A DNA stretch of 64,000 nucleotides from Verrucomicrobium sp. GAS474 (lineage in GTDB: Bacteria > Verrucomicrobiota > Verrucomicrobiia > Methylacidiphilales > GAS474): assembly GCF_900105685.1 (NCBI RefSeq), contig NZ_LT629781.1, forward strand, positions 2,356,001 through 2,420,000, given 5' to 3'. The number at the start of each line of letters is the position of its first letter. Position 1 is the first letter of the stretch. The translations under genes were made by a program, and so were the position numbers. The notes below the pieces were generated by a model, which had not been told where the DNA came from, searched no databases, and saw only the letters and a list, made by a program, of their open reading frames with translations. Below are positions 30,333-39,948 of the stretch, in pieces.

Positions 30333-31280
30333 ATGTCTAAGGCGTTCAAGGAACTGACGGCGGCCGAGGTGCTCGCCCTCGCGATTTCCCAGGAGGAAGA
30401 GGATAGCCGGATCTACGGCCAGTTCGCCCAGCGGGTCGCGGCCGATTATCCCGAGACCGCCGCCGCCCTGCGCCACATGCAGGAGGAGGAGGCGGAACAC
30501 GGCGCGCGGCTGACCGAGGCCTATCACCGCTGGTTCGGTCCCCACATCCCGCTGATCCGCCGCCAGGACGTGAAGGGCTACATCCGCCGCAAGCCGCTCT
30601 GGCTGGCGAAGGTGCTGACCGTCTCGCAGATCCGGGCCGAGGTCCATCGGATGGAGGCCGATGCCTGCGATTTCTATACCGCCGCCATCGGGAAGACGAA
30701 CGACCCGATCCTCCGCTCCTTCCTCGTGAAGCTGGCGGAGGAGGAGGGGAAGCATGCCGACCTCGCCGAGGCCTTCGAGGAGAAGCGGATCGCCGGGGGA
30801 GGGGACAAGGAGGAGAAGCGGCGCTTCGTCCTCCAATACGTCCAGCCCGGGCTGGCCGGGTTGATGGACGGATCGGTCTCGACCCTCGCGCCGGTCTTTG
30901 CGGCGGCCTTCGCGACGCAGAGCAGCCATGACGCCTTCCTGGTCGGCCTCGCCGCCTCGCTCGGCGCGGGGATCAGCATGGGCTTTGCCGAGGCGCTCTC
31001 CGACGACGGCGTCCTCAGCGGGCGCGGCAAGCCGTTGATGCGCGGCGCGATCTGCGGCCTCATGACGACGGCAGGCGGCATCGGCCACACGATTCCCTAT
31101 CTCATTTCCGATTTCCGCCTCGCGACGGGGATCGCCGTCGGCGTGGTGGCCGTCGAGCTGGCCGTGATCTCGTGGGTCCGTCATCGCTACATGGAGACGT
31201 CGCTGTTTTCGGCGGCGATCCAGGTGGGGATCGGGGGGGCGGTGGTCTTTCTGGTGGGGTGGGTGATTGGGTCGTTTTAG
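30333..31280 (+). CDS. mbfA: MbfA-type ferritin-like/VIT1 iron exporter
   Basis: Membrane iron(II) exporter that moves ferrous iron out of the cytoplasm, in MbfA coupled to a rubrerythrin-like domain. The 315-residue protein is a fusion. Residues 1-160 form the ferritin-like four-helix domain with Glu/His ligands ([43 protein letters not shown]). Residues 165-315 form the VIT1/CCC1-like domain ([35 protein letters not shown], then three hydrophobic helices). The gene follows the TonB receptor by 31 bp. The first structured repeat begins at the base after its stop codon. Confidence 0.9.
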
Positions 31281-31560
31281 GGGGACATGCGGTTTTCTGC
31301 TAGGCGGTCCGCCTCCCTGGATGGCAAGGGGGTGGGGCAGCCCTTCGGGACCTGCGCGGTCAACCCTGTACAGCTGGAGGCGATCCGCTTTAACGCCACA
31401 GAGGGGCTTCGCCCCTCCGTGACCTCCCCTTCTGAGGGCCTTAACTAGGCGGACGCGTTTCCCCCCTGCGCCGCGTCTCCTAACTGGATTAATATCCGCT
31501 GCTTCCCAAGCGTCCGAGGGTACGTATTGAAGGGGTAGCGGTACCAATACGCCTAGACTC
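31281..31560 (+). repeat. Structured intergenic repeat, copy 1 (core 31342-31446)
   Basis: This 330 bp non-coding gap between mbfA and icd holds no plausible gene. Its core matches, in inverted orientation, the gap at 39164-39417. Conserved blocks in order: CCTTCGGGACC (31342), CCCTGTACAGCTGGA (31364), the hairpin GAGGGGC-TTC-GCCCCTC (31401-31417), GACCTCCCC and GGGCCTTAACT (ends 31446). A hairpin with arms AAGGG/CCCTT precedes the first block; another with arms GGCG/CGCC lies between the second block and the conserved hairpin. No T-tract follows, so it is not an intrinsic terminator. The 3' half contains modules also found in copy 2 but arranged differently. The right part probably also holds the icd promoter. 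Confidence 0.75.
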
Positions 31561-31610
31561 CTATCTTGCCAACGCCGGGAAAGTGGCCTTACTCTCTCCC
31601 CTCTACACTT

Positions 31611-38176: not shown

Positions 38177-39163
38177 ATGGCTGAATTTTCCCCCACGCGG
38201 TATGACTCGATGCAGTATCGGAAGTGCGGCAAGTGGGGCCTGAAGCTTCCCGCGATTTCCCTCGGCGCGTGGGAGACCTTCGGCGGGTACAAGGGCGAGC
38301 AAACGGCGCGGGAATGCCTCTTCCGGGCCTTCGACCTCGGCATCACCCACTTCGACCTCGCGAACAATTACGGCAAGCCGCCCGGCCACGCCGAGCAGGT
38401 CGTGGGCAAGATCCTCAAGGAGATGCCGCGCGACGAGCTGATCATTTCCTCCAAGGCCGGTTACACCATGTGGCCGGGACCGTATGGCGACTTCGGCTCG
38501 CGGAAGTACATCATCGCCTCGTGCGACCAGTCGTTGAAGCGGCTCGGCCTCGACTATGTCGACATCTTCTACCATCACCGCCCCGATCCCGAGACCCCGC
38601 TCGAGGAATCGCTCGGCGCGCTCGAAAGCATCGTCCGCAGCGGCAAGGCGCTCTACGCCGGGATCTCGAACTACCAGGGTCCCCGCGCCGCGGAGGCGGC
38701 GGAGTTGATGCAGAAGCGGGGCTGGGCCCCGATCACGATCCATCAGCCGCGCTACAACATGTTCGACCGCTGGATCGAGGACGGCCTCCTGCCGGTGGCC
38801 AAGAAGGAGGGCTTCGGGCTCATCCCGTTCTCGCCCCTCGCCTGCGGCCTGCTGACCGACAAGTATCTGAACGGGATTCCCGAAGGCTCCCGCGCCACCT
38901 CCGACATGTGGTCGGCGGGCGGGGTCCGGGACAAGGCGAACAATGCCGAGTTCGTCGAAAAGATCCGCGGCCTGAACGCCATCGCGCAGGAACGGGGGCA
39001 GAGCCTCGCCCAGATGGCCCTCGCCTGGGTGCTGCGTCATCCCGAGGTGACGAGCGCGCTGATCGGGGCCTCGAGCGTGAAGCAGATCGAGGACAACGTC
39101 GCGGCGTTGAAGAACCTCGCCTTCTCGAAGGAGGAGTTGCTCAAGATCGAGAAGCTGATTTAA
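38177..39163 (+). CDS. Aldo/keto reductase (YghZ/GAP-reductase-like)
   Basis: A 328-residue NADPH-dependent aldo/keto reductase in an alpha/beta barrel, close to E. coli YghZ (L-glyceraldehyde 3-phosphate reductase) and potassium-channel beta subunits. The catalytic tetrad is seen: Asp and Tyr in THFDLANNYGKPPG, Lys in ISSKAGY, and His in FYHHRPDPETPLEE. The cofactor region is PFSPLACGLLTDKY and GASSVKQIEDNV. It starts 41 bp after the HI0933 gene. The second structured repeat fills the gap between it and the convergent YkgJ gene. Physiological substrate unknown. Confidence 0.93.
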   Translation: MAEFSPTRYDSMQYRKCGKWGLKLPAISLGAWETFGGYKGEQTARECLFRAFDLGITHFDLANNYGKPPGHAEQVVGKILKEMPRDELIISSKAGYTMWPGPYGDFGSRKYIIASCDQSLKRLGLDYVDIFYHHRPDPETPLEESLGALESIVRSGKALYAGISNYQGPRAAEAAELMQKRGWAPITIHQPRYNMFDRWIEDGLLPVAKKEGFGLIPFSPLACGLLTDKYLNGIPEGSRATSDMWSAGGVRDKANNAEFVEKIRGLNAIAQERGQSLAQMALAWVLRHPEVTSALIGASSVKQIEDNVAALKNLAFSKEELLKIEKLI

Positions 39164-39417
39164 AGGCCAGCCGCTTCGGTTCCTCCTGCACTCGGACGCG
39201 TGGTTCCTCCCAAGCGGACAAGGGAACTAGCGGACGCGCTCTACCCGAAGCGGATGGCCTAATGCGGTACCGCTCCGAACAGTTCAGGCCCATCTGACGG
39301 GGAGGTCCAGGAGGGGCGAAGCCCCTCTTGCGTCGTCTAACCCGTGCGGGTTACATCCAGCTGTACAGGGTCTTTGCCCGGTCCCGAAGGAGCGTTCACC
39401 GCTCCCTTCGCGGTCCC
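39164..39417 (-). repeat. Structured intergenic repeat, copy 2 (core 39281-39390)
   Basis: This 254 bp fills the space between two convergent stop codons. Read on the minus strand it starts right after the YkgJ stop. Its core shares with copy 1 the same blocks: CCTTCGGGACC (39380-39390), CCCTGTACAGCTGGA, the hairpin GAGGGGC-TTC-GCCCCTC, GACCTCCCC and GGGCCTGAACT (39281-39291). The middle hairpin here is TAACCC-GCAC-GGGTTA; the first hairpin is GAAGG(G)AGCG-GTGAA-CGCTCCTTC. A 9-bp direct repeat GGTTCCTCC lies at 39178 and 39202 in the distal part. No open frame with coding character is visible. Confidence 0.75.
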
Positions 39418-39948
39418 TTAGAAGGCGTGGGCACCCTTCGTCCCGCTCTCTTCGTTGAGGGCTTCGCCGACGGCCTGGGGGAGGGCGGTGGGGCCGTGAT
39501 GTCCCTGCCGTCCGCCGCGCTGCTTCCCCTTTTCGAGCTTCAGGTCGATCGCCTCGAGGCGCTGGATGAGGTCGATGAGGTCGCGTCGCGCGTATTCCCC
39601 GCCCGCCCCGGCGCAGAAGTGGGTGCGGCAGCCGAAGGGGCGGTCGTTATAGATCATGCATTTCCGTTCCTTGCTCAGGAAGGGGCAGGCATCGCCGTCG
39701 GTCTCGGGAAGCTTCGTCCGGCCCGAGGCGCGCCAGGCCTTCGCGGCGACGAGGGCCTCGGCCTTGGTCAGGTAGGGGGTCGCCCCCGTCAGGACGAAGT
39801 GGCAGCACTCGGCGATGCCGGTGCAGTTCCGCTCGAAGGCGAGGTTGGTCTTTTCCCGCTCCGCGAGATCGGCATAGACCTGGCGGACCTCGGCGACGAC
39901 GGTCTTCTTCAGGGCGATGAGGGGATTGGGAACGTGGGGGCGCTTCAT
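39418..39948 (-). CDS. YkgJ-family cysteine-cluster protein
   Basis: A 176-residue cytoplasmic protein of the YkgJ (UPF0153) family, annotated elsewhere as putative zinc/iron-chelating. The cysteines CTGIAECCHF, ACPFLSKERKCMIY and RPFGCRTHFC form the cluster pattern. The family is thought to bind a metal or iron-sulfur centre; the reaction is unknown. The C-terminal 40 residues are Gly/Lys/Gln-rich and probably flexible. ATG 39948 (MKRPHVPN) is chosen since the longer frame to 40053 is Ser/Gly-rich and overlaps the start of the divergent dus gene. A paralogue is at 58254. Its stop codon directly abuts structured repeat copy 2. Confidence 0.82.
   Translation of the reverse strand: MKRPHVPNPLIALKKTVVAEVRQVYADLAEREKTNLAFERNCTGIAECCHFVLTGATPYLTKAEALVAAKAWRASGRTKLPETDGDACPFLSKERKCMIYNDRPFGCRTHFCAGAGGEYARRDLIDLIQRLEAIDLKLEKGKQRGGRQGHHGPTALPQAVGEALNEESGTKGAHAF

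Follow-up and report, generated by a model that had tools for sequence, protein, structure and literature searches.

Within the window analysed here, a 64,000-nt stretch of the Verrucomicrobium sp. GAS474 chromosome, two gaps between genes carry related non-coding blocks in inverted orientation, one on the plus strand (31342-31446) and the other on the minus strand (39281-39390), and the question is what kind of element they represent. A sequence-only reading had proposed a conserved structured element of ~105 nt, either a selected RNA or a mobile repeat, and all of the motifs that it listed are indeed present in both blocks and in the same order. GAS474 is a forest-soil isolate whose nearest cultured relatives are Methylacidiphilum and Methylacidimicrobium, and the paper describing its genome makes no mention of repeats (PMC5786674). 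We found no prior description of this repeat in the open-access literature searched, which is not all literature. As argued below, the two blocks are probably members of a mosaic, hairpin-containing family of non-autonomous interspersed repeats that are duplicated into new sites in trans and survive mainly at gene 3′ ends, an explanation in which we have good confidence.

Anatomy of the repeat and its P5 hairpin

Copy 1, a member of subfamily A, extends across 31281-31570 on the plus strand and is composed of a 5′ leader, a conserved core and a 3′ half ending in CCAATACGCCTAGACTCCTATC, with approximate ends taken from an alignment of 30 genomic copies. In this alignment, homology reaches ...CTCCTAT, and homologous DNA aligns across about 230 nt from position 31335. 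The leader starts right behind the TAG stop codon at 31278-31280. The flanking genes are a rubrerythrin/VIT1-like gene and an isocitrate dehydrogenase gene, and the copy takes up most of the 330 bp that separate them (31281-31610), a gap made up of the repeat plus about 40 bp. The conserved core (31340-31432, plus strand; nhmmer E 2.1e-25) contains P1 CCCTTCGGG, P2, GTACAGCTGGA and the P5 hairpin, CAC-A-GAGGGGC-TTC-GCCCCTC-C-GTG, at 31397-31421 (plus strand). Copy 2 is assigned by subfamily alignment to the diverged subfamily B and covers 39164-39417 on the minus strand, as delimited from the sequence, that alignment, Pfam matches of the flanking genes and a check of the gap. It fills nearly all of a 254-bp gap (39164-39417) between two convergent genes, encoding a CxxCxxCC-domain protein (minus strand, stop TAA at 39418-39420) and an aldo/keto reductase (plus strand, stop ending at 39163). 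The leader of copy 2 begins 0 nt after this TAA, and its conserved core lies at 39297-39390 (minus strand; nhmmer E 3.7e-19). When the window is searched with a profile derived from all copies, there are two matches and no more, at 31340-31432 (plus) and 39390-39297 (minus).

The complete unit is roughly 230-290 bp in the 30 aligned copies, running from a G-rich leader before CCCTTCGGG through about CCAATACGCCCAGACTCCTATTGGGAG, and the ~105 nt originally delimited are the conserved 5′ half only. There are several subfamilies, and modules of different subfamilies are combined in single, chimeric copies. An additional module of 61-63 bp (TTGCCTCCCGG...GCAGGCAGT) is nested at several positions in both GAS474 and its congener G002, mostly in the P5 loop or just after it, and each of the 33 instances found is located inside a repeat or next to recognisable repeat parts (G002 was read by eye). 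This nested module appears to be a repeat for which hairpins of the larger repeat serve as targets. Its sites include L033, L059 and others, with GAS474 C1:479360, 387324 and 858827 among them, and it also occurs antisense in G002. Degenerate short repeats, GCTTGGGAGA / GCGTATGGGAGA, run on from many subfamily A copies (e.g., L002, L020, L022), and repeats of this type fill the spacer of 5′-5′ pairs. A coding element was rejected, as the open frame of some subfamily A copies is broken, on inspection by eye, by stops and indels in other subfamilies.

A closer look at P5 shows that its three closing pairs occur as CAC/GUG, CCA/UGG, GCA/UGC, CAA/UUG and UAA/UUG, together with two frequent types that have a single mismatch. 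Among 26 distinct sequences, 96% of the cells are paired and 19 are double-changed, compared to 6.0 in shuffles. The covariation score exceeds all 500 shuffles and all slid controls, where kinship among the copies inflates the comparison with shuffles. Outside this hairpin, the case for a selected RNA is not borne out: whole-element folding shows no excess stability over shuffles (mean z -0.9 sense, -1.3 antisense), copies 1 and 2 of the window do no better than their shuffles either (z -0.76 and +0.32), and the alignment gives equally good folds sense and antisense, with no strand preference. Since the antisense folds equally well, selection could act on DNA hairpins instead of RNA. The statement that no Rfam family has this set of motifs is upheld, as the window gives only a tRNA match and five copies come nowhere near any family's gathering score.

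Copy number and taxonomic range

A DNA search of the repeat's own genome (3,763,444 bases, one contig) returned 203 candidates, with 40 scored copies that are 89-100% identical, the weakest with an E of 6e-40, and these genome-wide copies exclude a chance likeness of the window pair. The motif CCCTGTACAGCTGGA, allowing up to 2 mismatches, occurs 187 times in GAS474 compared to 16 times for a reversed control. In an 800-kb sample (GAS474 C1:100001-900000), of which the repeat makes up about 2%, 67 pattern matches compare with 66 profile matches. This agreement makes the net count of 171 a fair genome-wide estimate, and GAS474 is estimated to carry about 170 copies; the counts rest on searches, this sample and single loci. 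A one-off DNA duplication between the two gaps, the outcome that the sequence-only reading had foreseen if no further copies turned up, is consistent with the presence of only two copies in the window; it has virtually no chance of being correct, and is refuted by the estimated 170 or so copies in the genome and the at least 74 in the congener. The spread along the chromosome is uneven: the first 2.25 Mb contains 134 of the 150 best copies and the interval at 2.7-3.3 Mb almost none, and the window falls in the copy-poor half.

A covariance-model search of the genome and its relatives, as that reading had proposed, gave at least 150 matches in GAS474, 74 in congener G002 (82% complete) and 0 in congener G001. 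RNAalifold predicts weak structure for the mixed alignment (-9.3 kcal/mol), so the covariance model R1 works mainly as a sequence profile. Among 39 other genomes in the relatives search, copy 1 matched only G002, and a conserved 21-mer was found in no genome but GAS474 in a 388-genome sample of the phylum that includes GAS474. In the genome_contigs collection, true relatives occur only in “uncultured Verrucomicrobium sp. I3b_bin-317”, which by contig number and coordinates corresponds to G002. Two viral_contigs matches and the non-congener genome_contigs matches were dismissed on inspection as chance, with nothing beyond the 21-mer in common. As far as found, the family is limited to one small genus related to Methylacidiphilum. 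In the CAISZB01 contigs of G002 (e.g., L122, L126, L138, L147, L149), many contigs end in a copy, which is what a repeat that breaks assemblies should produce. The repeat probably fragmented this metagenome assembly, and the G002 copy number is probably underestimated.

Placement at gene ends and differences between congeners

Gene calls for the 800-kb sample were made with a simple codon-usage finder, not standard annotation, and by these calls none of the 66 copies is inside a predicted gene; all are intergenic. Copies are carried by 24 of the 107 convergent gaps, 26 of 407 tandem gaps and 5 of 107 divergent gaps (Fisher p 2e-4 for convergent vs. divergent, p 5e-6 for convergent vs. tandem), and by 24 of the 42 convergent gaps of at least 150 bp. 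Between a same-strand upstream stop codon and CCCTTCGGG there are most often 20-30 nt, as many as the leader spans, and about half of the copies that follow a same-strand gene thus begin 0-2 nt behind its stop codon. Spacing on the 3′ side is looser, at 11-84 nt for most single copies. Copy-free convergent gaps are mostly a few to some tens of bp, and selection against other insertions therefore explains part of the stop-codon abutment, while the asymmetry between 5′ and 3′ spacing suggests that it may not explain all of it. TGA is under-used beside copies (4/27 vs. 96/287; p 0.03, uncorrected for multiple tests). In a simple scan of the same sample, intrinsic terminators appear rare, at about 6-10% of non-operon gene ends. 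None of the 27 genes with a copy close behind the stop has one, and the rate beside copies is not clearly different from that elsewhere. Among the 150 best matches listed, close neighbours are opposite in orientation in 18 of 21 cases (p 0.0015), which is BIME-like, and nine of these 18 are 3′-3′ pairs with a distance of 387-405 bp between their core starts.

Orthologous gene ends were compared with G002, as G001 gave only 15 reciprocal best hits in the stretches compared. The gene ends of S447, S435, S262, S578 and S138 carry a copy in G002 and none in GAS474, while the S242/S243 convergent gap carries a copy in GAS474 and an intrinsic terminator only in G002. Protein C-termini are preserved at these six filled/empty gene ends. 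In four of the five ends filled in G002, the leader is directly behind the stop; the S262 copy is inverted and stands at the place of an intrinsic terminator in GAS474. Two gaps with a copy in each species (S138/S139, where the subfamilies differ, and upstream of S196) were excluded from shared insertions. The filled/empty comparison reveals no obvious target duplication, and the 3′ flanks of the congener differ. Given that the two species differ at six orthologous gene ends in the presence of a copy, copies have been gained or lost since the GAS474/G002 split. Presence and absence in both directions and the 89-97% identity among many copies of GAS474 are most simply read as recent movement of the repeat, although the six sites are a small number and gain vs. 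loss is not polarised at them. Of the two possibilities raised at the outset, it is thus the mobile repeat that is supported: copies are numerous and scattered between genes, they occupy orthologous gene ends in one species and not in the other, and their subfamilies recombine. The selected RNA has compensatory changes in its favour in P5 alone.

Possible routes of mobilisation and known repeat systems

The search for a mobilising enzyme covered several families. The Y1 (RAYT) transposase PF01797 has no matches in GAS474, with five control genomes positive, and reverse transcriptase PF00078, IS110 PF01548 and DDE_Tnp_1 PF01609 are likewise absent from GAS474. PF00665 has a single match in GAS474, a Tn7-like TnsB-type gene with no listed copy nearby. 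In the corresponding Tn7-like transposon (L220, GAS474 C1 about 1020500-1023770), a 906-codon frame is followed by a TnsC-like ATPase gene, and by eye and one weak Pfam hit this frame appears to consist of a TnsA-like N-terminal part and a TnsB-like transposase. Neither window copy has a terminal inverted repeat by end-to-end inverted similarity, which does not exceed that of shuffles given approximate unit ends. No full-length parent with the repeat's ends is present in the sequence read, and the tested transposase families are absent or unlinked.

In the explanation that we favour, new copies would be made at other sites through a trans-acting enzyme able to recognise hairpin-bearing DNA, much as RAYT transposases recognise REPs. 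Insertions would survive mainly at gene 3′ ends, where they harm neither coding sequence nor promoters, and an inserted copy would belong to the upstream message as part of its 3′ untranslated region. Modules would then be mixed by gene conversion among copies, and termination or mRNA stability might be affected as a by-product. The tight stop-codon abutment counts against this account, since neutral survival does not fully explain it. A mobile repeat might instead have a real targeting preference directly behind stop codons, by a mechanism outside RT, Y1, IS110 and DDE_Tnp_1, with insertions that replace or supply transcript 3′ ends. We consider such targeting decidedly unlikely, but if it were true, a mobile element would write the 3′ UTRs of its host.

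Alternatively, the repeats may be true MITEs, remnants of a lost or not yet recognised autonomous transposon with the same ends, as their high copy number, ~250-bp size and composite pairs with long inverted arms at near-constant spacing would suggest. We regard this origin as possible but doubtful, because single units have no terminal inverted repeats, the sequence read holds no full-length parent, and the viral_contigs matches are due to chance. It is rather improbable that the repeat is a functional 3′-UTR element, a transcribed structure that ends or protects messages in a terminator-poor genome through Rho-dependent termination, an exonuclease barrier or separation of convergent genes. 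The starts 0-2 nt behind the stop in about half of the copies after a same-strand gene, the convergent excess, the covarying P5 closing pairs, the low terminator frequency with 0/27 beside close copies, and the exchange at S262 of a repeat in the congener for an intrinsic terminator in GAS474 all agree with such a role. Set against these are the differing presence at the same genes between congeners and the lack of copies in G001, stability no better than that of shuffles with no strand preference and no U-tract seen, and a terminator rate beside copies that is not clearly different from elsewhere. Multi-copy genes for trans-acting small RNAs would share the conserved core and one supported hairpin, but many starts abut upstream stop codons with no obvious promoter room, and ~170 copies in several subfamilies without an Rfam match make small RNA genes very unlikely.

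Among known systems, REPs are mobilised by RAYT transposases and have as their unit a 20-40-bp palindrome with a GTAG or CGTC tag at one end. They are found mainly between convergent and unidirectional genes (PMC3733652), and E. coli REPs at most 15 nt from a stop codon are reported to stall ribosomes (PMC12306157). The GAS474 repeat resembles REPs and BIMEs in its high copy number, its intergenic location in convergent and unidirectional gaps near stop codons, its alternating pairs and its hairpin, but its unit of about 250 bp is built of several modules and the genome has no Y1/RAYT. ERICs are intergenic and non-autonomous, with a 127-bp enterobacterial consensus. They number from 30 to 711 copies per genome (PMC10969869). 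The GAS474 repeat is similar in its 100-bp scale, intergenic location, copy numbers of up to hundreds and non-autonomy, and differs by description in its phylum and longer unit. Like bacterial MITEs, it is a short non-coding mobile repeat with composite pairs that have long inverted arms, although its single units have no terminal inverted repeat, no obvious target duplication is seen and no parent IS was found in the sequence read. Within the Verrucomicrobia, Opitutus terrae has high-copy GTAG-tagged repeats (PMC3733652), which share the phylum and high copy number but are set apart by description as short palindromes. As congeners differ at orthologous gene ends, it becomes testable how transposase-poor genomes amplify such repeats, and whether stop-adjacent repeats alter termination, translation or mRNA decay. 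The GAS474 repeat behaves like REP/BIME or ERIC elements, yet departs from REPs in unit size and in the absence of RAYT, and from MITEs in having no terminal inverted repeats. With it, a poorly studied phylum gains an intergenic repeat family that is large, modular and apparently undescribed.
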